Positions 9,540-25,091 of a stretch of DNA of 62,069 nucleotides are shown piece after piece. A model generated the notes under the pieces. It worked only from the letters and a program-made list of their open reading frames with translations, ran no database searches and was not told where the DNA came from. This stretch comes from Gammaproteobacteria bacterium (GTDB lineage Bacteria > Pseudomonadota > Gammaproteobacteria > Steroidobacterales > Woeseiaceae), in assembly GCA_018677555.1 (NCBI GenBank), contig JAHHOT010000157.1, positions 1 to 62,069 of the forward strand. The letters are read 5' to 3'. The first letter of the stretch is position 1; the number at the start of each line of letters is the position of its first letter. The translations under genes were made by a program, and so were the position numbers.

Positions 9540-11081
9540 TCACTCCATGGCGAAGTGACGATCGAGCAGCGGGGCCTGTACTCCATGGCCAGAACTGTCC
9601 GTCTCATTGTCCAGTATTTCGACCGTGCGCTCGAAAAGCTGCTGTGCCTCTGCGGGATTGTTCGCAATACAGGTCATGCCGATCTTGCCGTATTGCGATA
9701 ATGCTCCGATCATGTGAAACAACGCGCCGGTGCCCGTCGAAGTCCGGTAACCGAGGCCGTGCCGAGCGACAATTTCGAACAGATCTTCGGGCAACAGGCC
9801 GCGGTAGGTGGCCGATTTGAGGTTGTCGGTCGCGTTGTAGTACTTCAGCTGGCCGTCCGGGCAGATAAACAGGCCGTTCTTCGTATCGAGCTTGCCGCCG
9901 GTCAGAAACTCCAGCGCGTGAAACGGTGGCGTAGTGCCCCCCATCCGCAGGTTTATCTCAATGGCGTTTGCGGTCCAGTCGCCGCCTGCTTCACGACCAA
10001 CAAGGAAGTCGACGCCAAAGCGGCCAACGACTCCTTTCTCTCCCAGCACGCGACCGATCTTCGCCGCCTCCTGTTGCAGCAGCTCACGATATGCATCGTC
10101 GGCCGGAAAGCGGCATCCAAGGTAAGATTGACCGGTCGACCCGCCCAGCAATTGTTCGTGACTCGAGACGAGCGACGGCTGCCCCTGTGGCGAAACCCGC
10201 ATTTGCACGCTGGGTGAACGCGTCTCGCTCGCCGTAACCATCTCCTCGACGATGCCTCCCATTACGCCGAACTTGCGCAGGAAGGATTGGGTGGTTTCAG
10301 TGCTCGACGTCCAGGCCAGTTTGTGAAGTGCTTCGCGCAGTGCGCCGCGGTCCCCGCGCTCAGGCGGATACTCGAAAATACTGTTGCCCTCGCCGCCGAA
10401 TCCTTCGTTCAGCTTGACCACTGCCTTCTTAACGGCAGGACGCTGTTGACCCAGCTCCAGCAACGCGTCGACGATCTCGTCCTCACTGTGCAGGTCTTCG
10501 CTGCCAGCCGGATAGCGCACGCCCGCCTCCGCGAATACCCGGCGATTGCCGGATTTCGTACCGTGGCCAAGCAGGCTCGGGTCCAGGCCGTTCAGCGGCA
10601 GCTCGAGCGCAACCGCCAGTCTTCGCTCCAGCGGCGTCGAGTTGTAACAGGTCAGGTACGCGTGCTTCGTATCGCCGACGAGTTCTCGCATGCGTTGCAC
10701 GAACCGTGGCCGTTCGAGCACCTTTTCAGTCAGTGGCCGTGCACTGGCGTCGCAAACCGACAGCACGTGCAAACGCTGCCGCGCATGCTGCGTCGGCACG
10801 CCTTCGAGCATGTCGAGATAGTATTCAACAATGTCAGGATGCACCGGCTGGCTGGTCACGTAAATCAGGCGCGCATTCGGGTTTCGCAATCGAATCAATG
10901 CGAACAACAAGCGCTCTTCGTAATATGCGGCACCCGTTACTTTGGACAGTTCTTCCTGGTTGACACTCAACGACGGGACGATGACCGACGTGTGCTTGTA
11001 AGTGGGATCGCTGGAGAGCGCTGTCCATATATCTGGCAAGCGCTTCTTCAGAGTCTGGAATTGTTCGGCGTCGCTAGTCAT
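9540..11081 (-). CDS. PGM1-like peptide ligase (ATP-grasp)
   Basis: LSVNQEELSKVTGAAYYEERLLF, YVTSQPVHPDIVEYYLDML, LTEKVLERPR, LTCYNSTPLERRLAVAL, AVVKLNEGFGGEGNS, EINLRMGGTTPPF; matches my memory of PGM1-related ligases (pheganomycin type). Confidence 0.75.
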   Translation of the reverse strand: MTSDAEQFQTLKKRLPDIWTALSSDPTYKHTSVIVPSLSVNQEELSKVTGAAYYEERLLFALIRLRNPNARLIYVTSQPVHPDIVEYYLDMLEGVPTQHARQRLHVLSVCDASARPLTEKVLERPRFVQRMRELVGDTKHAYLTCYNSTPLERRLAVALELPLNGLDPSLLGHGTKSGNRRVFAEAGVRYPAGSEDLHSEDEIVDALLELGQQRPAVKKAVVKLNEGFGGEGNSIFEYPPERGDRGALREALHKLAWTSSTETTQSFLRKFGVMGGIVEEMVTASETRSPSVQMRVSPQGQPSLVSSHEQLLGGSTGQSYLGCRFPADDAYRELLQQEAAKIGRVLGEKGVVGRFGVDFLVGREAGGDWTANAIEINLRMGGTTPPFHALEFLTGGKLDTKNGLFICPDGQLKYYNATDNLKSATYRGLLPEDLFEIVARHGLGYRTSTGTGALFHMIGALSQYGKIGMTCIANNPAEAQQLFERTVEILDNETDSSGHGVQAPLLDRHFAME

Positions 11082-11096
11082 GAAGGCTGACCGACA

Positions 11097-12317
11097 TCAG
11101 GCCGCATGCACGCGCACTGTCTCGCCGACTTCGTTCAAGATGCGGCGCAGCTCGTCGTAGTCCGGGTGCCGAATACGCATCCAGGCGTTCGCCATGTAAC
11201 CCGCCTCAACCGCTTGCGTTGCTGTTCCCGGCTCCGGCAAGTGCGCCGCAACGATGCAGTCGCCATAGCGCCGGCCTATTTCGTCGACGCCCGAATAGCC
11301 GGTGATGTGACCATCCTGCTCCGGGCGCAGCGCGATCATCCCCGCGGCATACCGTCGTGACGGCTCGTTGCTGGTTTTACCGTGCACGAGCGTACAGGCC
11401 CATTCGAAGTACAGGTCAAACTCGTTGGCCGCGTTGTAGACATCCCATTGACCGACACCGGGCGGCCGGCAACCGATCTCGGAAAACTTGAGACCTTTTG
11501 GCCCGAAGAACCACTCCATGTGTGTTGCCGAGGTCCCGATGTCGAGTATCTTTATAACCTTCCGTGTGAGCGCACGAACCTCTTCATAGCCCGGCGCGTC
11601 GATTCGATTCGTAGCGACCATTTGTGGCGAGATCCAGCGCTTTCGCATTGCCTCGAGAACGTTGGGGTAGTAATGGGTAATGAACTCGTGCCCGACCTCG
11701 CCATTGATCGTCACCGTATCGATGAATCCCTCGTGGCCCTCGATAAATTCTTCGATCGCGACCGCCTGACCGTCGGCCAGCCCCGACTCACGGATGACTA
11801 TTTCCATCTCGTTATCGTCACGAACGCGGAACGTACCGGATGCACCGGCGCCGGCCGGCGGCTTGATTATCAACGGATAACCGACCGCCCCGACGAAATC
11901 GCGTGCGTCCTGCGGTGTCTCCGCGCGCGTTGACTGGGCGCATGGCACGCCGGCCTTGCGCAACGCTTCTTTCATGGCGGGTTTGTCCCGGCACAGGTAC
12001 GCGGTTTTGGTCGATGTGCCGGGAATACCGGTGGCCTCACGAGCATGGGCAGCGGCCATTATGTGTGCTTCGACCGTTGCTTCCAGCCGGTCCACCCAGA
12101 CCTTACCCTGGATCAGCTTCACCGCTTCGATCAGCGACGGCTCATGCACCACCGAGCGCACCTGCACATAGTCGCTCAGCCAGTTTTTCATTTCATCGGA
12201 CAGGTATTCTGCCGGTCGCTCCCCGACCCCGATGACGTTGGCGCCCGCCGCGTGCAGTCCACGAACGAATTCGCGCTGGTTGTACGGAAAAGACGGCTCG
12301 ATAAAAATGACGTTCAT
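11097..12317 (-). CDS. ATP-grasp ligase, paralog A1
   Basis: MNVIFIEPSFPYNQREFVRGLHAAGANVIGVGERP; YPLIIKPPAGAGASGTFRV, THMEWFFGPKGLKFSEIGCRPPG are ATP-grasp motifs. Overlaps the glgA-like stop (12314-12317). Confidence 0.85.
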   Translation of the reverse strand: MNVIFIEPSFPYNQREFVRGLHAAGANVIGVGERPAEYLSDEMKNWLSDYVQVRSVVHEPSLIEAVKLIQGKVWVDRLEATVEAHIMAAAHAREATGIPGTSTKTAYLCRDKPAMKEALRKAGVPCAQSTRAETPQDARDFVGAVGYPLIIKPPAGAGASGTFRVRDDNEMEIVIRESGLADGQAVAIEEFIEGHEGFIDTVTINGEVGHEFITHYYPNVLEAMRKRWISPQMVATNRIDAPGYEEVRALTRKVIKILDIGTSATHMEWFFGPKGLKFSEIGCRPPGVGQWDVYNAANEFDLYFEWACTLVHGKTSNEPSRRYAAGMIALRPEQDGHITGYSGVDEIGRRYGDCIVAAHLPEPGTATQAVEAGYMANAWMRIRHPDYDELRRILNEVGETVRVHAA

Positions 12318-13786
12318 TGTTCATTGCTCAACTGTCGGAACAGTTCCACATAGCGCCCACCCTGGCGCTCCCACGAATAATCCATTGCCATGCCGTTAGC
12401 GACGATCTTCCGCCACAGCGGCCGCCTGTCGTACAGGTCGAGGGCCATATTCATAGCCCACGCGAGTCCGGCTTCATTGTAATCGCGAAACAGGATGCCG
12501 GTCCCTGATTTTTTGTCGGGGTCGATTTGCTGCACCGAATCGGCCAGCCCGCCCGTTTCGCGCACGATGGGAACGGTGCCGTATTTGAGGCTGTACATCT
12601 GGTTCAGGCCGCAGGGCTCGTACAGCGATGGCATCAGGAATATGTCGCTACCCGCCTCGATCCAGTGAGCAAGCTTGTTGCTGAACCCGCGGTAATAGCA
12701 AACGCGACCCGGAAAATGCCGCTGCAGCTCGCTGAAAAAATTCTCGTAGCGGGGCTCTCCGCTGCCGAGCACGACCAGGGCGAAATCCCTCGAGCGTAAC
12801 AACGTCGGCACCACGTTCTGGATCAGATCGATACCTTTCTGGCCGACAAGCCGGCTAATGAGCCCTGCCAAAGGTCGTTGTTTTGCGTATTCCAGGCCCA
12901 TCTCCCGCATCAATGCTTTCTTGCAGGTAACTTTGCCGCGGATATTCGCAGGGGTGTAATTCTGGGGAATCAGGGGGTCGGTTTCAGGATTCCACTCGTC
13001 ATAGTCAACACCGTTGAGGATACCGACCACCGAATCGACGCGCGCGCGCAGCAGATGATTCAGGCCCATCCCGTAGTCGTCGCCGAGAATCTCCCGCGAG
13101 TAGGTCGGGCTCACGGTGGTAATAAGGTCGGCATACATCACTCCCGTTTTGAGGAAGTTGATGACACCGTTCTTCAGGTCATCCTGGTGCAGATGATGCT
13201 CGGCGCCGGTCAGCTGCAACTCGGGCAGGACGTAAGCCGGGAACATGCCCTGGTAACCGATATTGTGAATCGTCAGCACCGTGCGGGTTTTCGCAAACAG
13301 CTTGTCCCAGGCATAAGTGCTACGCAGATACAGTGGAATGAGCGACGTTTGCCAATCGTGGCAGTGGAAAATATCCGGCGCGAACTTCATGCGCTGGCAC
13401 ATCTCGATCGCCGCGCGTTGCAGCAGTAGAAATCGCAGGTGTTCGTCATCGTCCTGGGTGTAGATGCCGGGCCGATGATAAAACTCCGGGCAACGCAGCA
13501 GGTAGATCGGCAGGTCCGTTCCGGGCAATGTCGCCCTGTCAATGGCAAAGGTCTGCTCGCGCGACCCTAACCGGAGCCGCATGTCCGCAAGCTCTTTGAC
13601 AGGTTCGATCGCGATGCCGGACTCGTCGATTCTCGAATAGCGGGGGATCAGGACACGAACGTCATGTCCAGTGCGATGCAGCCAGGCCGCCAGCGCGGAG
13701 CAAACATCGGCGAGTCCACCGGTCTTGGCCAGTGGCGCAAGCTCGGCGCTGGCGAGGCAGATACTCAGTGCTCGTTGATTGACCAA
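12314..13786 (-). CDS. glgA: GT5 glycogen/starch synthase
   Basis: SAELAPLAKTGGLADVC (KTGGL), FHCHDWQTSLIP, TIHNIGYQGMFP, GILNGVDYDEWNP, LISRLVGQKG, LMPSLYEPCGLNQMYSLKYGTVPIVRETGGL. Confidence 0.93.
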   Translation of the reverse strand: MVNQRALSICLASAELAPLAKTGGLADVCSALAAWLHRTGHDVRVLIPRYSRIDESGIAIEPVKELADMRLRLGSREQTFAIDRATLPGTDLPIYLLRCPEFYHRPGIYTQDDDEHLRFLLLQRAAIEMCQRMKFAPDIFHCHDWQTSLIPLYLRSTYAWDKLFAKTRTVLTIHNIGYQGMFPAYVLPELQLTGAEHHLHQDDLKNGVINFLKTGVMYADLITTVSPTYSREILGDDYGMGLNHLLRARVDSVVGILNGVDYDEWNPETDPLIPQNYTPANIRGKVTCKKALMREMGLEYAKQRPLAGLISRLVGQKGIDLIQNVVPTLLRSRDFALVVLGSGEPRYENFFSELQRHFPGRVCYYRGFSNKLAHWIEAGSDIFLMPSLYEPCGLNQMYSLKYGTVPIVRETGGLADSVQQIDPDKKSGTGILFRDYNEAGLAWAMNMALDLYDRRPLWRKIVANGMAMDYSWERQGGRYVELFRQLSNEQ

Positions 13787-13863
13787 GAATTTTTCCTGTT
13801 TTTCTTTTGCTTGGTGCTATGCTGCTTCGCAGACGCCGTGAAAATTACCGAAAATCAATCCAA

Positions 13864-15081
13864 TTGAATGTATTGATATTATCACCCGGCTATCCGGCCG
13901 ACATGCCCGAATTCACCCGCGGCCTCGCGGAGTGCGGTGCAACCGCTTATGGCGTCGGCGACCAACCCGTCTCAGCGCTGCCTGACCTGGTCAGGCGGTC
14001 GTTATCCGAGTATGTGCAGGTGCGATCGCTATGGGACAGTGGCCAGGTCATTTCGGAACTGCATGATCGATTCAAAGGCCGCGAAATCGACCGCATCGAG
14101 TGCCTGTGGGAACCCGGCATCATGCTGGCGGCCGAACTGCGCAGTCACTTCGGGGTTGACGGACTGACGATCGAGCAAGCCCACCGATTTCGCGACAAGG
14201 AAGCCATGAAGCTCGCTCTCGACGAGGCGGGCATACGCACGCCGCGCCACGTCGCGGTGGACAGTATCGCGGCTGCATGGGAGGCCGCTGAGCGAATAGG
14301 ATTTCCGGTCATACTGAAACCGATAGCCGGCGCAGGGTCGGCCGATACCTACCGGATCGACAGCGCAGACGACCTGCGTGCCGTACTGCCTCGTTTGCGG
14401 CATGTTCCATCTGTGTCCGTCGAGGAATTCGTCGACGGTGAAGAATACACTTTTGATACGATTACCATTGACGGCGAAATTGCCTATTACAACGTCGCCT
14501 GGTATCGCCCGCGGCCCCTGATCGCGCGGAGCAACGAATGGATCAGCCCACAGGTCATCGCGCTGCGGGACGTCAGCGATCCGGAACTGGCGGACGGCAT
14601 CCGGATGGGCTTTGACGTTATCAAGGCACTCGAGTTCGGTTCCGGCTTCACCCACATGGAATGGTATCGCAAGGCCGACGGCGAAGTGGTATTCGGTGAG
14701 ATCGGCGCGCGGCCTCCCGGCGCGCACCAGGTGGACCAGATGAAGTTTGCCTGCGACTTCGACGTCTTCCGCAGCTGGGGTTCCGCGATGACCCGCGGCA
14801 GCCTCGATGCGGATATTCAGCGGAAGTACAACGTTGCCACGATTTACAAGCGCGCCCAGGGCCAGGGGCGGATCTCACGCATCGAAGGTACGGAAACGTT
14901 GCAGCAACGCTTCGGCGAACATGTCGTCTGGAACACGCTGTTACCGGTCGGAACACCGCGTCGGAACTGGCTGAATACGCTCGTCTCCGACGGCTTCATT
15001 ATGTTGCGGCATCCCGACCTCGATGAAACCCTCGCCATGGCAGATGCGGTCGGGTCGGAACTCCACTTGTACGCCGGCTAG
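13864..15081 (+). CDS. ATP-grasp ligase, paralog A2 (opposite strand to neighbours)
   Basis: Start taken as TTG 13864 by alignment with A1 (LNVLILSPGYPADMPEFTRGLAECGATAYGVGDQPVS...EYVQVRSL); FPVILKPIAGAGSADTYRI, THMEWYRKADGEVVFGEIGARPPGA. Confidence 0.85.
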   Translation: MNVLILSPGYPADMPEFTRGLAECGATAYGVGDQPVSALPDLVRRSLSEYVQVRSLWDSGQVISELHDRFKGREIDRIECLWEPGIMLAAELRSHFGVDGLTIEQAHRFRDKEAMKLALDEAGIRTPRHVAVDSIAAAWEAAERIGFPVILKPIAGAGSADTYRIDSADDLRAVLPRLRHVPSVSVEEFVDGEEYTFDTITIDGEIAYYNVAWYRPRPLIARSNEWISPQVIALRDVSDPELADGIRMGFDVIKALEFGSGFTHMEWYRKADGEVVFGEIGARPPGAHQVDQMKFACDFDVFRSWGSAMTRGSLDADIQRKYNVATIYKRAQGQGRISRIEGTETLQQRFGEHVVWNTLLPVGTPRRNWLNTLVSDGFIMLRHPDLDETLAMADAVGSELHLYAG

Positions 15082-15091
15082 GCGCGACCGG

Positions 15092-15820
15092 TCAGGCAAA
15101 TTCGTCGAGGTACCTGGGCAGCATTTCGCGCCAGGTATTCCAGTCGTGATGCCACTCCGGACCCCAGGGATCGACCCTGTTGGGTATTCCCCGCGACCCC
15201 AGCACCCGCGCCATCCGCCACGATTCTCCAATATCCTCATAATCACCTTCGCCCGACGGCAGCAGGATCATCCGTGTACGCAGGCGGTTCAGTTGTTCAC
15301 CCTCGAGCTGCGGCAAGTAGTGCAGCGGCGACGAAAAATGAAAATCGAGGTTCATCTTGCCTTCGAGGTACTTCGACAAATCGAAGGTGCCGCTCATCGC
15401 GATCGCCAGTCTGTAGGCATCCGGGTGCCGGCAAACTGTCGCGACGGCGTTGAATGCGCCGATCGATGCGCCTGCAGCGATGATTTCGATATCGTGTGAG
15501 TTGCAATCGGTCCTGATCGCCGGCGTTACTTCCTCGTAGATGAAGCTGTCGAACAGGTTCTGCAAGCGCGAACAGAACCCACCGGAATGCTCACCTGAAA
15601 TCCACGCCCTGCCCGCCACGCTGTCGGTAGAGTAGACCTTGATGCGACCGGCATCGATCAACGACTCGAGCACACGAATCAGATGAAACCGCTCGATCTC
15701 CTCCGCGTCGCCGCCGGCCGTCGGGAACAGCAGCACCGGAGTGCCCAGGTGTCCCCACCGGACAAGCTGTACCTCCTGTTCCAGGCGCGACGAATACCAG
15801 CGTGATTGGTCTTTCTGCAT
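15092..15820 (-). CDS. Esterase-family alpha/beta hydrolase
   Basis: VLLFPTAGGDAEEIERFHLI, IIAAGASIGAFNAV (nucleophile elbow GASIGA), DPWGPEWHHDWNTW; start at MQKDQS adjacent to the upstream stop. Confidence 0.75.
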   Translation of the reverse strand: MQKDQSRWYSSRLEQEVQLVRWGHLGTPVLLFPTAGGDAEEIERFHLIRVLESLIDAGRIKVYSTDSVAGRAWISGEHSGGFCSRLQNLFDSFIYEEVTPAIRTDCNSHDIEIIAAGASIGAFNAVATVCRHPDAYRLAIAMSGTFDLSKYLEGKMNLDFHFSSPLHYLPQLEGEQLNRLRTRMILLPSGEGDYEDIGESWRMARVLGSRGIPNRVDPWGPEWHHDWNTWREMLPRYLDEFA

Positions 15821-15822
15821 GT

Positions 15823-17070
15823 TCAGGCCGCGACTTGCTGCGCGCGCCAATCCTGGATGCGACTCCAGAACAGTTCAGTAAACTCCTCGATTTCATGGTC
15901 CGGATACAAGGCCTCTACCTTCTGCCGGATTGCATCGCGCACGAATTGCGAGCCAAAGAACTCGTCCGCAACCTCATCGAGATGCGACAGGTGCTGCTCG
16001 CAAAATTCATTGAAGCGATCGTATTCGAAGTACTCGAGTGCGATCTTCGAGTAGGACTCGAGCTTCTCCTCGAACGAAATGTCCTGCTCGGCAATCCTGA
16101 AGTACTCGCCCCAATCGAGGTTCGTGTGCATGGAACGATCCGTCGCAGCACAATAAACCGACCACCGCAGGTTGGCGTTGATCAGCCATGGAAAATGATA
16201 GTGCAAGGACGTTACCTGCGAATCCGGGCAGCCGTTCGCAAAATCGATGGGCCGCCAGACCCCGTTCGACCGCAATGCCTCACAGGAATTGAAATCCCAG
16301 CCGAAGAACGCATTGATCACCATGGTCATGCGCGACAACGTGACCTCGTCGGATTCAGAAAGAAAGTCAGCGTCGGTTCGATAGCGGTCATGCAAAGGCG
16401 CCGCCGGATCATAGTTCACGCAACGCCACTGCGGACCAAGCCCGACGCAGCGAACGAACATGTCGTGTGGATCGACAGCCTCCTGCAAATGCATGACGCG
16501 CGTGCCGCTCTGGTTATAGGCCTCGTTCAGAGCCTCGCGGTCCTTGATTGCGGTCACGCCGACCCACGCACCACCATCGTAGGGCTTCATGAATAGCGGG
16601 TAGCCGATCTGGTCGCCAATTTCGCCGAGGTTGAACAGCTTGGCGTAGTTTCGCAGCGTAGGCTGCAGGTCGGGCGACTCGAGGTAGGTCTTGGGCGGCA
16701 CCAGCCAGGTGTCCGGTATCGGGAAACCCAGTCGCATCATTGCACAGTAGGTCGTGTGCTTTTCCATGGACTGGAGGGACCACGGATTATTGAATACGTA
16801 GAGGTCGTCGGTGAGTATTGCTTTTTTGATCCACTCCCGTGACGTGTGGTACCAATGCGTCAGCCGGTCGATTACTACGTCGTACTTGACCGGCTTACGC
16901 AGGTCGAAAGGCTCAATATTGATGCGCTCGACATGAAATCGCTGCGTCTCTCCGTCGACGTCAATCGCAAGGTCGAGTTTCTTCAGTAATGCCTCGTAGC
17001 ACAATGGCCAGCAAATATCCGCGCCGAGCGATAACCCTATGTTTCTTGTTCTTGTTTTCACTTTAGTCAT
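15823..17070 (-). CDS. RimK/D-Ala-D-Ala-ligase-like ATP-grasp protein
   Basis: TTYCAMMRLGFPIPDTWLVPPK, IGYPLFMKPYDGGAWVGVTAI, GWDFNSCEALRSNGVWRPIDFANGCPD (substrate/metal-binding-like segment). Confidence 0.7.
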   Translation of the reverse strand: MTKVKTRTRNIGLSLGADICWPLCYEALLKKLDLAIDVDGETQRFHVERINIEPFDLRKPVKYDVVIDRLTHWYHTSREWIKKAILTDDLYVFNNPWSLQSMEKHTTYCAMMRLGFPIPDTWLVPPKTYLESPDLQPTLRNYAKLFNLGEIGDQIGYPLFMKPYDGGAWVGVTAIKDREALNEAYNQSGTRVMHLQEAVDPHDMFVRCVGLGPQWRCVNYDPAAPLHDRYRTDADFLSESDEVTLSRMTMVINAFFGWDFNSCEALRSNGVWRPIDFANGCPDSQVTSLHYHFPWLINANLRWSVYCAATDRSMHTNLDWGEYFRIAEQDISFEEKLESYSKIALEYFEYDRFNEFCEQHLSHLDEVADEFFGSQFVRDAIRQKVEALYPDHEIEEFTELFWSRIQDWRAQQVAA

Positions 17071-17109
17071 CCCCGTGGAATTTCTCACCACTATAAATTT
17101 TATTCGTCG

Positions 17110-18246
17110 CTATTCATAGACGAACCAAAGGGGTCCCGGATACAGCCAGGACAGGCCGCTGCGCAGCCGGTCACGCCAGTTCTCCCAGTTGTGCGCGTCG
17201 CGCGCCTCTTCGAAGCGCACATTCAAACCCTGAGCCTGGAGCCGCGGAACGAGCGAGCGATTTTCGTAAATAAGCGATTCGTAAATCCCGCAGCTCAGGT
17301 AGATATTCTCTGCGGGACAACCGGGTTGTTCGCGAAATTCGTTCATGAAACGCACGACAGGGTCGAAAACCGGGCCCCGCTGATGCCGCCCGAGGTCACT
17401 GAACGCGAATGAACCGGACTGCAGCAGGAGATTGCCGAACACTCCGGGGAAGCGCCACGCGGCATGCAGCGAAGCCACACCGCCGAAACTCGCACCCATG
17501 ATGCCACGCGCCCGGGCTTCGTCAATCAACGGATACCTTTCAGACATGAATGGCAACAAGTCTTCGGCGAGAAATTTCGCATGTCGCTCATCGCCCGCAT
17601 ATTCCTTGAGCCGATCCGGGGACTGGGTCAGCGCGACGATCATCTGCGGAATCTCGAGCGCGTGAATGAGGTTGTCGAGCACCGTTTGCAAGGACGCAAA
17701 ATTCACGTAGTCGACGCCGTCATGCACCAGCAGAAGTGGGTATTGCCTGTTCCTCCGAAACCTCGCGGGCAGGTATACCTGCACATCACGCGCCTCGTTG
17801 AACGCAGCGCTGCCGACATTGACCGTTTCGATCGCGCCTCGGCGACATTCATCGTTCGGGTAGGTCCATTCCGGACGTTCGTAGCCGTCGGCCTGGCAGA
17901 CCGAATTGGCGCCGAACGGGTCGCGGGCCACGACCTCATTTAACGGGTCGAGGATCAACTGGCGGTTGCCGTTGTTGATGACTTCGAACTTGTACTCGAT
18001 TCGCGAACCTTTTGGCAGCTCGATGGTAGCGGCCCACAGATCGGTACCGCTCAGTGGCTGAAACGGCTGCGCCGTATCCAGCCCGGCAATCCAGCAACGC
18101 AGGAACACCTCCTCGGCCTGTCCGCGATAGACGAATGTGACGTCACTGCCATCGACAAGCGGAAACCCGGTTTCGTGAATAAACGCATCAAGCTGCGCCG
18201 CATCCGGCGTGTTCTTGCGAAACAACTTTCGTAGTGCCGGGTTCAT
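17110..18246 (-). CDS. Fes-like esterase with N-terminal E-set/CBM48-like domain
   Basis: N-terminal VTFVYRGQAEEVFLRCWI...LWAATIELPKGSRIEYKFEV; C-terminal YPLLLVHDGVDYVNF, RGIMGASFGGVASLHAAWRFPGVFGNLLLQSGSF. Confidence 0.8.
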   Translation of the reverse strand: MNPALRKLFRKNTPDAAQLDAFIHETGFPLVDGSDVTFVYRGQAEEVFLRCWIAGLDTAQPFQPLSGTDLWAATIELPKGSRIEYKFEVINNGNRQLILDPLNEVVARDPFGANSVCQADGYERPEWTYPNDECRRGAIETVNVGSAAFNEARDVQVYLPARFRRNRQYPLLLVHDGVDYVNFASLQTVLDNLIHALEIPQMIVALTQSPDRLKEYAGDERHAKFLAEDLLPFMSERYPLIDEARARGIMGASFGGVASLHAAWRFPGVFGNLLLQSGSFAFSDLGRHQRGPVFDPVVRFMNEFREQPGCPAENIYLSCGIYESLIYENRSLVPRLQAQGLNVRFEEARDAHNWENWRDRLRSGLSWLYPGPLWFVYE

Positions 18247-19187
18247 GCCGCGCGCAGCCGCACGATGCGCCCGTCGCGACTAAGGCGCCGCACGGAAACC
18301 GCGGTCGCAACGCGGCTGTTCCTGACCTCCAGTGCAGCGCCATTATCGAGCGCCACGCAGGTGTCCGGGGCAAACCGGCGACAAAGAAGCTCGATGCGCG
18401 AGCGGTCGCGTTCCTGCAGGCGGTGTGACGCGTCCGGGAAATAAACATGGCCGCTCACAAGACCGCAGCCGGTCCCGAATATCTCCGCGTCGCGGCGGCC
18501 TTGGGGACTCCGGTCATGGAACAATACGACGCGCTCGGCGAGCACCATGGCGCCAGCCGACCATGCAACGACGTGGCGATTTGCGAGCAAGCTGTCGACG
18601 CCGAAAAGCCGCAGGCGATTGAGCAACACCGCCACGTTGCCGCCGCTGATCAATACCACGCTGCAACCGTTGATGACCTCACGAATTTCTTCGTGATGCC
18701 TTGCAAGCAGCGGGCTTGATGTCACATTGAACTGCTCACCGAATGGCCTGCCGATAGACTCGGTTCGATGCAGGTGGTGCCGATCCAGCGCGCGAAGCTG
18801 TGCGATCGCGTGGCGTTTCTCCGCCGCGACCATGGCGGCATCACCATCGGCGCGCAGTGTGTGACGCGCGGCAACAGCCAGCTGTTTCAGGCGCAGCCGA
18901 TACAGTCGCTGCTGCTCCTTGAGACGGTTCTGCCGCTCGCGGTGCGCAGCGGCAAGTGCTTCGTCTGTCCGGAATACGTCGTCGGCGCGCGCGTAAAGAC
19001 GCAAATCCACGAGTGGCCTACCGACAATTTCCCGCAGGGTGTCGATATCGTTTTCCGCTTCCTGCCAGCCTGCCGTTATCGTTGCGAACGTGCCCTCCGG
19101 CAAACCAGCTGCCATCATCGCCGCATCGATGTTGTGGGCCGGACTCTGCGGGCCAAGGATAAGTCGCATGCACTGTTCGGTGCTCAC
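18243..19187 (-). CDS. S51/cyanophycinase-like peptidase
   Basis: VVLISGGNVAVLLNRLRLFG, HVVAWSAGAMVLAERVVLF (S51 nucleophile motif WSAGA); overlaps both neighbouring genes by 4 nt. Confidence 0.65.
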   Translation of the reverse strand: MSTEQCMRLILGPQSPAHNIDAAMMAAGLPEGTFATITAGWQEAENDIDTLREIVGRPLVDLRLYARADDVFRTDEALAAAHRERQNRLKEQQRLYRLRLKQLAVAARHTLRADGDAAMVAAEKRHAIAQLRALDRHHLHRTESIGRPFGEQFNVTSSPLLARHHEEIREVINGCSVVLISGGNVAVLLNRLRLFGVDSLLANRHVVAWSAGAMVLAERVVLFHDRSPQGRRDAEIFGTGCGLVSGHVYFPDASHRLQERDRSRIELLCRRFAPDTCVALDNGAALEVRNSRVATAVSVRRLSRDGRIVRLRAA

Positions 19188-20407
19188 GCAAGCTCCACGC
19201 GAATCAGCTTCACGATTTCGGACAGCGAGTCCTCGACCACGCTGGTTTCCGGATGGCGAACAATGACGTAACCGTCGCCCTCGTAGCTATCTGACGGCGG
19301 CTGACCCTCTCGCGGCAGCTTCGCTTCGACCACGAGCTCGCCGAAACGCCGCTGCGCCTCGTCGAGGCCATGAATTGCACGCACTCGCCCCCGGCCCTGG
19401 CCGCGAATGTAGGCTGCACCTGCGGCATAGCGGCGAGGCGGCGGATCGAATTCATCGAATACGACCAGCCTCGGCCAGGCCTTGTAGAAATCAATGTCAT
19501 GCGCATAGGACAGCAACGAGGTAATTTGCGCCCCCGGCGGGCGGGCGCCAACCTCCGAGATCGCAATGCGCCCGTCCATGAGACGAAACCACTCCATGTG
19601 ACTCAAGCCGTTTTCCAGTCCAAGCGCATGCAGGCCCGTTTCTGCCGCCGCACGGATCGGATCGAACTCACTGCCGCTGATGTCCCGCGGCAGCAGCACG
19701 CACCACTGTATCCATGGATTCTCGAGGACTTCGAGTGGCGAAGGTACGTAGCGCGATATCGAGTGCCAGACGAGCTTGCCGTCCAACATGACACTGTCGA
19801 ATGAGAACTCCGTGCCACGCACGAACTCTTCGTACAAGCTGGGATGGTTCGGGTCTGGCGCATAGCGCCCGAGAAACCGTTCCAGCTGTTCGTCGCTGTC
19901 GACCCGATACGTCGCCTTACCACCCGCTCCGGCCGGCGGCTTCACAACCAGCGGATAACCGACATCGCGCGCGAACACACGGGCAGATTCGGGCTCAGCG
20001 ACCAGCGCATGCCGCGCGCAGGACACACCCGCATCGCGCAGGACGGTCTTCATTCTTGCCTTGTCACGGAAATTTCTTGCCGCCTCGGGGTCGAGGCCAT
20101 CGATGCCAAGCGACTCGCGGGCGATCGCCAACGGAACCTGAAGCTGTTCCAGCGTCGCAATATACCGTCGAGCCTTGCCAAAACGTTGCTGCAGCTCGTT
20201 GGCCGCTTGCGCCAGGTTGCCGGGGTCCAGAGCATCGCCGACGCGCCAGTGACCGGCGATGCGTTCGCGGATGTCCGCGGGAAGGTTGTCGACCGGGTCC
20301 TGGCTGACCAGCGTCAGGTCGACCCCGGGCAAATGCGACGCGCCGCGGACGAATCGCAGCGTCGCGTCCAGAAAAAACGGGGCAGCGAATATCACGTGAG
20401 TAGCCAT
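19184..20407 (-). CDS. ATP-grasp ligase, paralog A3
   Basis: Start MATHVIFAAPFFLDATLRFVRGA; YPLVVKPPAGAGGKATYRV, SHMEWFRLMDGRIAISEVGARPPGA; clearly paralogous to A1 and A2. Confidence 0.85.
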   Translation of the reverse strand: MATHVIFAAPFFLDATLRFVRGASHLPGVDLTLVSQDPVDNLPADIRERIAGHWRVGDALDPGNLAQAANELQQRFGKARRYIATLEQLQVPLAIARESLGIDGLDPEAARNFRDKARMKTVLRDAGVSCARHALVAEPESARVFARDVGYPLVVKPPAGAGGKATYRVDSDEQLERFLGRYAPDPNHPSLYEEFVRGTEFSFDSVMLDGKLVWHSISRYVPSPLEVLENPWIQWCVLLPRDISGSEFDPIRAAAETGLHALGLENGLSHMEWFRLMDGRIAISEVGARPPGAQITSLLSYAHDIDFYKAWPRLVVFDEFDPPPRRYAAGAAYIRGQGRGRVRAIHGLDEAQRRFGELVVEAKLPREGQPPSDSYEGDGYVIVRHPETSVVEDSLSEIVKLIRVELA

Positions 20408-20575
20408 AGCAACGCGAGTGTACCCGTAATCGTGCTCAGCTGCGTGGCGCATTGCGGCTCACCAAACCGTTGTAGATTGGAGGTTTGCACGCGCATTGCC
20501 GCCGTCTGTTGCGTTCAGTACGCCTGGCCGATTTATTGTGAGGTATCCGGATTCCCTGAGCACAAGGCTGCGACG

Positions 20576-20683: not shown

Positions 20684-22177
20684 ATGCGAGTTGTCTTCAT
20701 CGCGGCGCTGGCTGCATGCGTTTTTCAAGGCTGCACCAGTGATGATCGCGCGACCGGCGCTGCAGACCTCCTGTTAGCCAATGTTGTTGTCATATCCCCG
20801 GGCGGCGTCCCATCGCCGCGCATGGACGTCATTGTCGAAAACGGCCGCATTCTCTCCGTGGAGAAATCTGCACCACGTCGGAGCGGATTTGCAAGGAAGA
20901 CTATCGACGGCTCTGGAAAATTCCTGATTCCCGGCCTCATCGATGGCCACACCCACTTGAACGAAGTCCCGGGTATGAATTTCGAACACGAGCGCAGCTA
21001 CCCGGACATCTCGTCGGCAGCACGAAGTCAGATTCCGCGAAGTTACCTGTACCATGGGTTCACCACGGTTGTTGACTTGAATTCAACGCCCGGCGTCATC
21101 GAGCAATGGAATTCCCTCGCGGTGCGACCGCAAGCCTACTTTTGCGGCGCTTCGCCGGTGTTCGACGGCTACCCGATGAGCTGGATGCCGAAACCGGCCC
21201 GCTACGACATCATGCCGTACTTCCTGTTCGACGAGTCCCGCTCCGCGGAATTTCCCGAGGGTTTTGATCCGTCGCGCCACACACCGACAGCGGTTGTCGA
21301 TCGAATTCGCGCTGACGGCGGAATATGCGTCAAGACGCACTATGAACGGGGATTCGGCGGGCGCGGCGATCTGCCGGTGCCGACAGCCGCGCTCGTCAAA
21401 GCGCTCGTCGGAGCTGCTCATGCCAAAAAACTCCCGTTGCTGATGCATGCCAACTCGGAGTCTGCGCAGTCATTCGGGGTTGATACGGGAATCGACGCAT
21501 TCGCACATGGAATGTGGACCTGGAACGATCGTTTGCTAACGGAGATTCATACCGACATCGAAGAAATCGTCAACCAGACGATTGTACGAGACATTGCGCT
21601 GCAGCCGACAATTCAGGTTCTGTACGGTGAACAGGATATTCACAACCCGGATTACCTGGACGATCCGCGGCTGAAACGGGTATTGCCGGGCGGACTTATC
21701 GACTGGTATCGAACTGATGACGGGCAGTGGTGGCGACGACGCATGCTGCAGGTTCCGATCGTGTCTCAGCTCGTGGAACAAGGGCTGTGGCAGGAACTTG
21801 ATGCACCGCCCATTGCCCGGGTCTCCGCGGTACTTGAACACTTCGCGAGCAATGGCGGACGCCTGCTGTTTGGCAGCGATACGCCAAGTGATCCGACGTT
21901 TGCGAACCCGCCCGGGTTGAATGGACGTATGGAAATGGACCGGTGGATCGCTGCATCCGTAACCCCGGAACAGCTGTTTCTTGCAGCCACCGTAAACAAC
22001 GCGAATTTCTTCGGCCTGGGTGACGAGATCGGCACGATTGAAGCTGGCAAGCGGGCCGATCTGCTATTGCTCGGAGAAAACCCGCTGGACAGCGTTTCCG
22101 CCTACGACACTATCGAACAGGTCATACTGCGGGGCGTGGTATTGCATCGGTCTTCCCTGGCTGCCGACGCGGACTGA
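20684..22177 (+). CDS. Amidohydrolase family protein (predicted lipoprotein)
   Basis: FIAALAACVFQGCTSDD lipobox; LIPGLIDGHTHLNE, GSDTPSDPTFANPPGL, GTIEAGKRADLLLLGENPLD. Confidence 0.85.
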   Translation: MRVVFIAALAACVFQGCTSDDRATGAADLLLANVVVISPGGVPSPRMDVIVENGRILSVEKSAPRRSGFARKTIDGSGKFLIPGLIDGHTHLNEVPGMNFEHERSYPDISSAARSQIPRSYLYHGFTTVVDLNSTPGVIEQWNSLAVRPQAYFCGASPVFDGYPMSWMPKPARYDIMPYFLFDESRSAEFPEGFDPSRHTPTAVVDRIRADGGICVKTHYERGFGGRGDLPVPTAALVKALVGAAHAKKLPLLMHANSESAQSFGVDTGIDAFAHGMWTWNDRLLTEIHTDIEEIVNQTIVRDIALQPTIQVLYGEQDIHNPDYLDDPRLKRVLPGGLIDWYRTDDGQWWRRRMLQVPIVSQLVEQGLWQELDAPPIARVSAVLEHFASNGGRLLFGSDTPSDPTFANPPGLNGRMEMDRWIAASVTPEQLFLAATVNNANFFGLGDEIGTIEAGKRADLLLLGENPLDSVSAYDTIEQVILRGVVLHRSSLAADAD

Positions 22178-22226: not shown

Positions 22227-23519
22227 CTAGAGCATGAACGCGAGCAATGTCGCGGTACCGAGGAACGAGAAAAAGCCTGCAACGTCGGTAACGGTCGTCA
22301 GAATGATCGATGCTGCTGTGGCCGGGTCCTGTCCAGCCCGGATCAGTATTATCGGCACAACCGCACCGGAAATGCCGGCGGCGATCATCGACATGATCAT
22401 CGCAACTCCAATAACGATAGCGAGGCCGACCGACTGGCTCCACGCAAACACCGCGATACCGCAGGTGAACGCGAGTGCAACGCCGTCGATCGCGCCAACC
22501 TGCAACTCCTTCCACAGCACCTTGCGCCATTCGCGTGTGCCGATCTCGCGCAGCGCGAGGCCACGCATCGTCACGGCAAGTGCCTGCGAACCGGCGTTCC
22601 CGGACTGCCCCGCTACCACCGGCAGCAATACGGCAAGCGCCGTAAACTGTGCGATCAGCGACTCGAAAATGCCGACGACAGCAGCGGCAAGAAACGCAGT
22701 AAGCAGATTGATATGCAGCCAGGGCAGGCGCCGCTTCACCGAGAACACAGCCGGTGACAAGGCCCGCTCGTCAACGCTGACGCCAACCATTTTCTGCATG
22801 CTCTCGATCGCCACGGTTTCGATCGCCTCGAACAGTCTCTGGTAGCGAACGACGCCAAGCAGCCGGCCCTCGACGTCGACAACCGGAAGCGAATCGACCC
22901 GGTACTTGTCCAGTAACTCGACGACCTCGCTGCGAGGCGTGGTAGCGAGGATGCTTGCATCGACGTCCTCGAGCAATTCACTCAGAAGCTGGTCGGACCC
23001 GGCCATCGCCATCGTTTGCATGTCCACCCGGCCGACGAGGTGATTGCCGCGATCCACAACGTAAAGCGTTCGTGTGCGACGTGCTCCCGAACGGCGCAGG
23101 ATATCGAGTGCCTGCGCAACGGTCATGTCGACGCGAATCGTGTCGTAGGGGCGCTCCAGCAGCCGACCGGCGGAGTCTTCATGGAAGTGCTGCAAGCGCT
23201 GCAGGTCACTGCGCACGGAATTGGGCAGAGCCGCCATCAGCTGTTCGCGGGCATCCTCTTTCATGCCGGCGAGCAGTGCGAGCGCCAGCCGTGGCGATGC
23301 GTCCTGCAGCACCGCTTGCTGTTGTTCCTTGCTCAGAGCGCTGAACAACGCGAGGGCTCGCCCTCCGGACATATAGTCCATGCACTTGACCAGCATGGCC
23401 GGATTGATTGCCGCGATATGCTCACGCAACACGCGTTTCGGCAGTTTCTCGATGCAACGCGCGGCGTCGGCCGGCCGTTCGCGCAGGTAAGTTTCCTTGA
23501 GCGCGGCCTGCAGGTTCAC
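22227..23519 (-). CDS. mgtE: MgtE-type divalent cation transporter with CBS domains
   Basis: MgtE_N-like repeats, CBS pair (VVDVEGRLLGVVRY), C-terminal TM region LPVVAGQSGNAGSQALAVTMRGLA...ISGAVVPIILIRAGQDPATAASIILTTVTDVAGFF. Confidence 0.9.
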   Translation of the reverse strand: MNLQAALKETYLRERPADAARCIEKLPKRVLREHIAAINPAMLVKCMDYMSGGRALALFSALSKEQQQAVLQDASPRLALALLAGMKEDAREQLMAALPNSVRSDLQRLQHFHEDSAGRLLERPYDTIRVDMTVAQALDILRRSGARRTRTLYVVDRGNHLVGRVDMQTMAMAGSDQLLSELLEDVDASILATTPRSEVVELLDKYRVDSLPVVDVEGRLLGVVRYQRLFEAIETVAIESMQKMVGVSVDERALSPAVFSVKRRLPWLHINLLTAFLAAAVVGIFESLIAQFTALAVLLPVVAGQSGNAGSQALAVTMRGLALREIGTREWRKVLWKELQVGAIDGVALAFTCGIAVFAWSQSVGLAIVIGVAMIMSMIAAGISGAVVPIILIRAGQDPATAASIILTTVTDVAGFFSFLGTATLLAFML

Positions 23520-24334
23520 GACGATGGTTTCCGTGAGAGAAAGCTCGCAAGCACCGTATCCAGGAGGTACATGAGATCGATCAACAGGTTGAAGAACACA
23601 CCGCTCGGCCCACCGGCCTCGCCGGCCTGCCCACTGGCGGCACGGAATACTTTTTCCCGAGACACGCCGCCCAGAATTCGCTGCCGATGATCCACGACCG
23701 GCAGCCAGTTACGTGTATGCCACACCTCGTCCTTCGCAACCTCCGCAATCGGCACCTCGGGCCTCACGGCCTTTAGCCCGATCACATAGTCGCCAACGAT
23801 GCCAGTGGGCGGATTACTCATTAACAAATGCCATCGGTCGAGCATTCCCTGGTAGCGGCCGGTTTCATCGACAACAACGAGGGGACCAGGTTCGTCCGCA
23901 TCAGCTTCTCGCAACTCCGCAAGCACGTCCGCTGCGAGGGAATTCGAACTGAAGCGCAAAGGAATGTCACCGACCAGTGCGCCAACGCTGTGGGAGGGGT
24001 ATCGCTGGTGCTGCATGAGGCGGCGCCTGCGCCCACGGTCGGTAATGGACTCGACAAGCGCAAGACGTCGTTCCCGAGGCATGCGGCTGAGCAAATTGAC
24101 GGCTTCATCGAACGGCGCATCCGCTAGCCACTGTGCAGGTTGGTGTTGCCCGGAATCCACTAACTGCAGGATTCGCGCCGCGGGTAGCCGCGAAATTATT
24201 CCCGCTTTGCGCGCTGCTGGTAAGCTTTCGATGATTCGCGAGCTTTCCTCGCTGTCGCCGCGCCCGAGCACTCGCGCGAAGGAATCCGGAAACCGGGTTG
24301 CGAAATCGAGGCTCAGGGGATCGATCTCAGTCAT
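23516..24334 (-). CDS. MgtE_N/CBS-like protein lacking the full MgtE channel domain
   Basis: Start MTEIDPLSL; MgtE_N-like RIIESLPAARKAGIISRL, CBS-like segments, only a short hydrophobic tail; 4-nt overlap with the downstream mgtE. Confidence 0.65.
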   Translation of the reverse strand: MTEIDPLSLDFATRFPDSFARVLGRGDSEESSRIIESLPAARKAGIISRLPAARILQLVDSGQHQPAQWLADAPFDEAVNLLSRMPRERRLALVESITDRGRRRRLMQHQRYPSHSVGALVGDIPLRFSSNSLAADVLAELREADADEPGPLVVVDETGRYQGMLDRWHLLMSNPPTGIVGDYVIGLKAVRPEVPIAEVAKDEVWHTRNWLPVVDHRQRILGGVSREKVFRAASGQAGEAGGPSGVFFNLLIDLMYLLDTVLASFLSRKPSS

Positions 24335-24335
24335 T

Positions 24336-25091
24336 TTATTCTGCCGCCGGCTTGTGCAGCACGCTCGTTTCAGCCAAACGCGCGGCCGGTACCCGCACAA
24401 TGCCCTCATCGTTTGCGATATCGATGCCGGTTGCGTGGATGTCGACAACCTCGCCCTCGACTGCATCGACGCGAATGCGGTCGCCGACCGCCAGTCGCGA
24501 CAACTCCCTCCGCGCCAGCAGATTCGCGACGTGCTGCCGCGACCCCAGGGCGAACGCGAGCATCAGCCCACCGCCTGCCACGGCAATGACGATCAGCATC
24601 AATTGCGTAACGAACGAAATATCGACATCGATATGCTGCAGTCCCATGACCACGGCGACGATGAGGATTGCGCCGTAGAGCATGCGCGGCGCGAGCGAGC
24701 TGGCTGTCATGTCTTCACTCAGATTGGCCACAACGTGACTGACAATGAGCCCCACGACATGTCCTGCCACCACGATCATCAGACCAACCAGCAGTTGCGG
24801 CACGAAGGTGATGACGGCGTTCAGCATCGTAGCGATCCCGCCAATACCCAGCACACGCAGCGCGTAGGAAATGGCGAGGATGATGACCATCCAGAAGACG
24901 ATGGTTCGCGCAATCCGGACAAGCCGAGGCGAGATGACGCTCTTCTCACTGGTCGTGAGCCTCGCCGTGCGCCTGTCGAGAAAGTCGAGTATGGCGCCCA
25001 CGGCTACGCTGAGGAGCCGCGCGGCGATGACGCCAAGGACGAGGATTGCGACTGCAACCAGTTCGTCCCGCGCGGCGAGTGCATCAAACAT
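24336..25091 (-). CDS. Mechanosensitive ion channel (MscS-like) protein
   Basis: Multiple TM segments then GSRQHVANLLARRELSRLAVGDRIRVDAVEGEVVDIHATGIDIANDEGIVRVPAARL. Confidence 0.7.
   Translation of the reverse strand: MFDALAARDELVAVAILVLGVIAARLLSVAVGAILDFLDRRTARLTTSEKSVISPRLVRIARTIVFWMVIILAISYALRVLGIGGIATMLNAVITFVPQLLVGLMIVVAGHVVGLIVSHVVANLSEDMTASSLAPRMLYGAILIVAVVMGLQHIDVDISFVTQLMLIVIAVAGGGLMLAFALGSRQHVANLLARRELSRLAVGDRIRVDAVEGEVVDIHATGIDIANDEGIVRVPAARLAETSVLHKPAAE

Follow-up and report, generated by a model that had tools for sequence, protein, structure and literature searches.

Bacterial glycogen is regarded as a plain glucose store that requires about five enzymes, and the classical glycogen operons (glgBCAPX) contain neither peptide ligases nor CE1 esterases. 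We describe here a block of nine genes (G1–G9) that shares GlgA with these operons and, unlike them, surrounds it with five ATP-grasp ligases, two esterases, and a protein with the S51 peptidase fold. The block lies in a 62,069-nucleotide (nt) stretch of DNA, hereafter the window (contig JAHHOT010000157.1 of assembly GCA_018677555.1), from a gammaproteobacterium of the Woeseiaceae. The closest described relatives of its products are the BesA/PGM1 ligases, the L-amino acid ligases (4wd3, BacD), the RimK/LysX/ArgX ligases, Fes and the CBM48-bearing CE1 feruloyl esterases, and the S51 peptidases (dipeptidase E, cyanophycinase, and pseudo-CphB). Neighborhoods of ATP-grasp, GCS2, and peptidase or esterase genes were reportedly predicted by Iyer et al. 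in 2009 (Mol Biosyst 5:1636), and these are not known to have a connection with glycogen. Each enzyme of the block comes from a known family, and the combination with glycogen genes is the new part. The original prediction, made from the sequence of the window, was of a candidate undescribed biosynthetic system, no characterized pathway with this set being known; consistent with it, no publication on the gene combination with glycogen genes was found in the open-access literature, the main amidoligase-neighborhood survey lying outside that search. Gene order, GlgA phylogeny, and genome content together indicate that the block is very probably a real conserved system tied functionally to glycogen.

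All nine open reading frames (ORFs) were confirmed at the positions first given for them, and their family assignments are backed by Pfam/NCBIfam profile searches:

G1, 9540..11081, minus strand: BesA/PGM1-like ATP-grasp ligase, possible gamma-glutamyl ligase (PF18105 PGM1_C, PF18604; NF042917 BesA, E 1.2e-48; 8yi6, E 8e-48)
G2, 11097..12317, minus strand: L-amino-acid-ligase-like ATP-grasp, A1 (PF02222; closest PDB entry 4wd3, an L-amino acid ligase, E 1.2e-13; own cross-phylum clade)
G3, 12314..13786, minus strand: GlgA, canonical ADP-glucose-type glycogen synthase of family GT5 (TIGR02095, 532 bits)
G4, 13807..15081, plus strand: L-amino-acid-ligase-like ATP-grasp, A2 (PF02222/PF13535; own cross-phylum clade)
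G5, 15092..15850, minus strand: small PF00756 esterase with conserved GxSxG (S129) and H235 (PF00756, E 2.5e-9; alignment)
G6, 15823..17091, minus strand: RimK/LysX-like ATP-grasp with an extra C-terminal helical domain, about residues 328-421 (AlphaFold and Foldseek to ArgX/RimK, E ~1e-10)
G7, 17110..18246, minus strand: CE1/enterochelin-esterase-like hydrolase with an N-terminal E-set domain, Enterochelin_N (PF00756, E 1e-22; profile match to enterochelin esterase 2b20, E 8e-25)
G8, 18243..19187, minus strand: S51/GATase-like fold protein with a two-helix insertion, residues 76-152 (PF03575, E 1e-9; AlphaFold predicted local distance difference test score, pLDDT, 92.5; Foldseek)
G9, 19184..20452, minus strand: L-amino-acid-ligase-like ATP-grasp, A3 (PF02222; LAL_C2, 1.8e-5; own cross-phylum clade)

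Eight of the nine genes are on the minus strand, and G4 alone is on the plus strand, divergent from the GlgA gene G3 and convergent with G5. Because of this opposite orientation the block is not one operon and consists of two minus-strand units around G4. The gaps between adjacent genes are about 20 nt at most, the three 4-nt overlaps noticed originally (12314/12317, 18243/18246, and 19184/19187) are all present, and the start of G5 overlaps G6 by 28 nt. The second ATG of G9, at 20407, fits the conserved part of the protein better than 20452 and is likely the true start. Conservation in G4 begins only near residue 21, and the listed TTG therefore probably lies upstream of the true start.

When G6 was used to search the GTDB genome contigs, 485 relatives were found, and the best 80 of them (87% down to 63% identity) were examined as loci. 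These 80 span Woeseiaceae and other Gammaproteobacteria, Alphaproteobacteria (Rhodobacteraceae, Microvirga, and Geminicoccaceae), Myxococcota, and Planctomycetota; a few are labeled Gemmatimonadota, Eisenbacteria, or Acidobacteria, some of the rarer phylum labels resting on short metagenome-assembly contigs and calling for caution. Full-length partners were counted for G7 (77 loci), G5 (68), G8 (53), G2 (48), GlgA (39), G4 (30), G9 (28), and G1 (10), all of these numbers being lower bounds because many contigs end within the block. Three genes form a core that recurs across phyla, G7-G6-G5 (an esterase, a RimK-like ligase, and a second esterase), mostly with one further ligase (G2) and with G8, the latter being missing from many loci that have the core. 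The complete nine-gene order of the window was found again in L034, L036, L049, L066, L067, and L026, the last of these in a closed genome from the same family (G005). Myxococcota and Planctomycetota have these genes in a different order, and the block is reduced to G7-G6-G5-G2, often beside a YbdK/GCS2 ligase, in Alphaproteobacteria, where versions of it are present in named Microvirga strains. The homologs are therefore syntenic across phyla and not scattered, the co-occurrence across genera named as a check in the original prediction is borne out, and gene order shows that the block did not come together by chance.

Within Pseudomonadota the system is patchy and not universal, as G6 was found in 1 of 200 evenly drawn genomes (that of the window itself). 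Spread by plasmids was rejected, no G6 match being present among 72,556 plasmids; an anti-phage defense role was likewise rejected, since none of the eight non-GlgA proteins had a PADLOC match. One assembly (G042) contains two different G6 clusters, on contigs C57 and C110 (L028 and L030). An extra purD-like (GARS_A) ATP-grasp gene is present beside G1 in L034, L036, L052, and L053 and upstream of G9 in L042; in the window it was not found adjoining G1. Downstream of the block in the window (20684-22177 and 22227-24466) are an amidohydrolase and a pair of ORFs that by eye resemble a split MgtE-type transporter, and the transporter ORFs recur next to the block only in L053.

The GT5 enzyme G3 passes the TIGR02095 subfamily cut-off over its full length (532 vs. 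328 bits), as expected from its original assignment, and a score above this cut-off defines a canonical GlgA throughout. Interleaving of the block with glgC, glgP, glgX, and glgB occurs in several gammaproteobacteria. L039 has the order glgC-glgP-glgX-G9-G8-G7-G6-G5-(G4 reversed)-GlgA-G2-glgB-G1, L044 repeats this order without glgC within the limits of its contig, and a glgP-glgB-glgC-malQ block adjoins G9 in L049 and L067. Almost all block-linked GlgAs fall into one clade (95/98 support; 46 rows, 42 linked), which takes in Gammaproteobacteria, Myxococcota, and Planctomycetota; the housekeeping GlgAs of Alphaproteobacteria fall outside it. Several Woeseiaceae genomes without G6 have near glgC a different, lower-scoring type of GT5 enzyme. 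Since the genome of the window holds both types (the second, lower-scoring one at G000:C154:5022-6545), G3 looks like an extra glycogen synthase accompanying the block.

Genome content gives a similar picture. Among Woeseiales-order relatives a canonical GlgA was found in all 16 genomes with G6 vs. 8 of the 44 without (p 5e-9; p 2e-4 at the genus level). The tie to GlgC is looser in this sample (14/16 vs. 19/44, p 0.003), with two G6 genomes, one of them 85% complete, having no full GlgC match. A strong G6 match was present in 42 of 141 sampled Myxococcota, and all 42 have GlgA, often on a different contig, vs. 48 of the 99 without G6 (p 7e-11); the corresponding numbers for GlgC are 42/42 and 47/99. 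Nineteen further G6 genomes from several phyla, a few of them shared with the Woeseiales or Myxococcota samples, include 18 with GlgA above the cut-off, and the nineteenth has glgA in two fragments on different contigs. A general storage lifestyle is not supported as the source of this co-occurrence, because polyhydroxyalkanoate (PHA) synthase, used as a control in the Woeseiales-order relatives, showed no association with G6 (6/16 vs. 10/44, p 0.33).

The first ligase, G1, was originally called PGM1-like. The PGM1_C domain agrees with that name, and the closest solved relative is instead BesA, the L-propargylglycine--L-glutamate ligase of structure 8yi6. G1 shares with the BesA/PGM1 ligases the fold, the PGM1_C domain, and full-length similarity; it differs in scoring far under the BesA equivalog cut-off (166 vs. 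750 bits) and in having glycogen and ligase genes as neighbors rather than a natural-product cluster. G1 occurs in 10 and GCS2 in 20 of the 80 loci, never both in one locus (p 0.06, confounded by lineage). Since members of both families can form gamma-glutamyl amides and the two do not co-occur, we infer that G1 and GCS2 replace each other. Six myxococcal loci (L068, L074, L102, L105, L107, and L109) have beside the core an AstE/AspA-type deacylase and a GCS2-like protein of 660-730 amino acids with CBS domains, as if this putative ligase were adenylate-regulated.

The paralogs G2, G4, and G9, of which G2 is the most widely kept, form three separate, well-supported clades in the tree. Each clade spans several phyla, and the three-ligase set is for this reason judged older than the separation of the loci. 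With the L-amino acid ligases they share the ATP-grasp core, the ATP-site motif KP.xGAG, and the metal-site acids; besides the joint presence of three ancient paralogs, the difference is a metal-site motif that reads E-(I/V)-G-x-RPPG, in place of the E-x-N usual in L-amino acid ligases.

G6 has marginal Pfam matches only and does not reach the RimK-family cut-off (TIGR00768, 19.5 vs. 143.4 bits). In agreement with the original call of a RimK-like ATP-grasp, the fold of RimK, LysX, and ArgX is matched by an AlphaFold model that was computed from 43 relatives and has a mean pLDDT of 86.5. About 100 residues are invariant across the 43 sequences, and K169 and the metal motif IDFANxCPD (IDFANGCPD in the window) are kept. 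Its distance from RimK, LysX, and ArgX is nonetheless large: identity is about 15%, the metal motif is DxxN, the C-terminal helical domain is additional, and a carrier gene is not nearby. Three Myxococcota loci (L144, L145, and L146) have a shorter G6 relative (28-33%) together with a GATase-like ORF and varying partners, namely a G5-like esterase, a circularly permuted ATP-grasp, YbdK/GCS2, a G1-like/BesA-like ligase (43% identity), or a subtilase. They resemble a sister system, one that has no glycogen genes close by, and they support the view that G1 and GCS2 repeatedly accompany the G6 ligase branch.

Catalytic Ser and His are kept in alignments of both esterases, with S253 and H352 invariant in G7 (PF00756, 81 bits). 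G7 has the E-set plus alpha/beta-hydrolase architecture of Fes and of the CBM48-bearing CE1 feruloyl esterases; unlike Fes, it is found without siderophore genes and in a glycogen-linked block. The Enterochelin_N domain (PF11806) was detected in 30 of 34 G7 members, the match of the window's own protein lying just below the cut-off, and E-set domains of this kind are related to glycogen-binding modules. A PDB sequence search with G5 gave nothing useful. No signal peptide is apparent by eye on G5 or G7, both of which would apparently be cytosolic.

G8 was originally read as an S51 peptidase. The fold stands (PF03575, 38.6 bits against a cut-off of 23.9; Foldseek matches to peptidase E, cyanophycinase, and pseudo-CphB), and a PDB sequence search at E 0.01 returned nothing useful; as modeled, the S51 assignment is one of fold only. 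At the nucleophile of the G-x-S-A-G-A-like elbow (Ser210 in the window), 47 of 54 sequences have Ser, 6 have Cys, and 1 has Thr. Only 15 of the 54 have His at the position aligned to the catalytic His of S51, which is mostly Asp, Gln, or Asn in the others (Asp252 in the window), the equivalence (motif DQHF/NPHF) having been set by manual alignment, by eye. The two-helix insertion is a further difference from the S51 peptidases. Because the His position is not conserved and the nucleophile varies, G8 is probably not an ordinary S51 peptidase, and the trimming role first proposed for it as such is not supported.

The nine genes are read as a single biosynthetic system that is conserved and very probably coupled to glycogen metabolism, and more tentatively as one in which a peptide or acyl group is placed on or taken off an alpha-glucan. 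G1, or a YbdK/GCS2 ligase in other lineages, would make a gamma-glutamyl amide, which G2, G4, G9, and G6 would extend or cap with amino acids at the expense of ATP; our best guess for the ligase product is a short peptide or amide of gamma-glutamyl type. G5 and G7 may then act on the alpha-glucan that GlgA synthesizes, either transferring the acyl or peptide group to its hydroxyls or taking it off, and G8, with its altered catalysis, may process or sense the product. The link between ligases and glucan contained in the original proposal is supported by the interleaving with glycogen operons and by the co-occurrence with GlgA and GlgC, and the chemical product stays a prediction from sequence. 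Direct decoration of the glucan is accordingly put forward with some reserve, and several points weigh against it. The usual products of ATP-grasp ligases are amides and not sugar esters. A glucan-binding sense of the G7 E-set is weak, CBM_20 being matched in three members and CBM_48 in one (E ~0.003-0.006). Since the Woeseiaceae GlgA sits within the block, co-occurrence in that group is partly plain linkage, the Myxococcota with unlinked GlgA being the cleaner test, and the co-occurrence statistics ignore shared ancestry. The alphaproteobacterial core stands away from the glycogen operon. Finally, L118 (G035:C3:34000-52000) keeps G2-GlgA-G9 without the core in a genome that is 97% complete and in which no G6 was found, which suggests that G2-GlgA-G9 and the core are two separable modules.

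Nearly as likely as decoration is a small gamma-glutamyl peptide or amide that stays free, serving as an osmolyte, nitrogen store, or redox or signal compound and co-induced with glycogen under carbon excess or stress. The L-amino-acid-ligase, BesA-like, RimK-like, and GCS2 families are all peptide-forming, the GCS2-G7-G6-G5-G2 set of Alphaproteobacteria lies away from glycogen genes, and the sister systems (GATase, circularly permuted ATP-grasp, and GCS2 or G1) have none locally. Taken alone, however, a free peptide leaves unexplained why no G6 genome is without GlgA, and why one GlgA clade travels with the block and glgB/glgA are set between ligase genes. It is unlikely that G6 and its partner ligases tag a glycogen enzyme or a carrier protein with amino acids or peptides that the hydrolases later remove. 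RimK glutamylates ribosomal protein S6 and LysX/ArgX act on the LysW carrier, and the G6 fold is closest to these enzymes, but the short intergenic gaps leave no space for a carrier-protein gene in the block and a role for two esterases is hard to find. A cyanophycin-like polyamide store with the S51-fold protein as depolymerase, among the options first proposed, would draw on the cyanophycinase and pseudo-CphB matches of G8 and on the several ATP-grasps; it is very improbable given that none of the nine proteins has the Mur-ligase domain of a CphA-type synthetase, that the catalytic His position of G8 is not conserved, and that G8 is missing from many core loci. Least probable of all is a siderophore cluster or a graspetide cluster, the latter a type of ribosomally synthesized and post-translationally modified peptide (RiPP) locus. 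G7 resembles enterochelin esterase and graspetides are cyclized by ATP-grasp enzymes, but there is no space for a precursor peptide gene, a transporter or receptor is not in the block, neither esterase has a signal peptide apparent by eye, and the conserved linkage is to glycogen genes instead.

If decoration of the glucan is correct, the block would produce a peptide-glucan storage or stress polymer, which would be new. More generally, a conserved set of peptide ligases and esterases that lies within glycogen operons and accompanies GlgA would mean that a branch has been overlooked in the storage metabolism of Woeseiaceae from marine sediment, of myxobacteria, and of alphaproteobacteria from soil. 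The wider proposal, that many glycogen-storing bacteria make glycogen bearing amino acids or a short gamma-glutamyl peptide by means of ATP-grasp ligases and CE1 enzymes, is doubtful at present. A short list of testable genes results, and there is a real chance of a wholly new category should the product be a modified glycogen.

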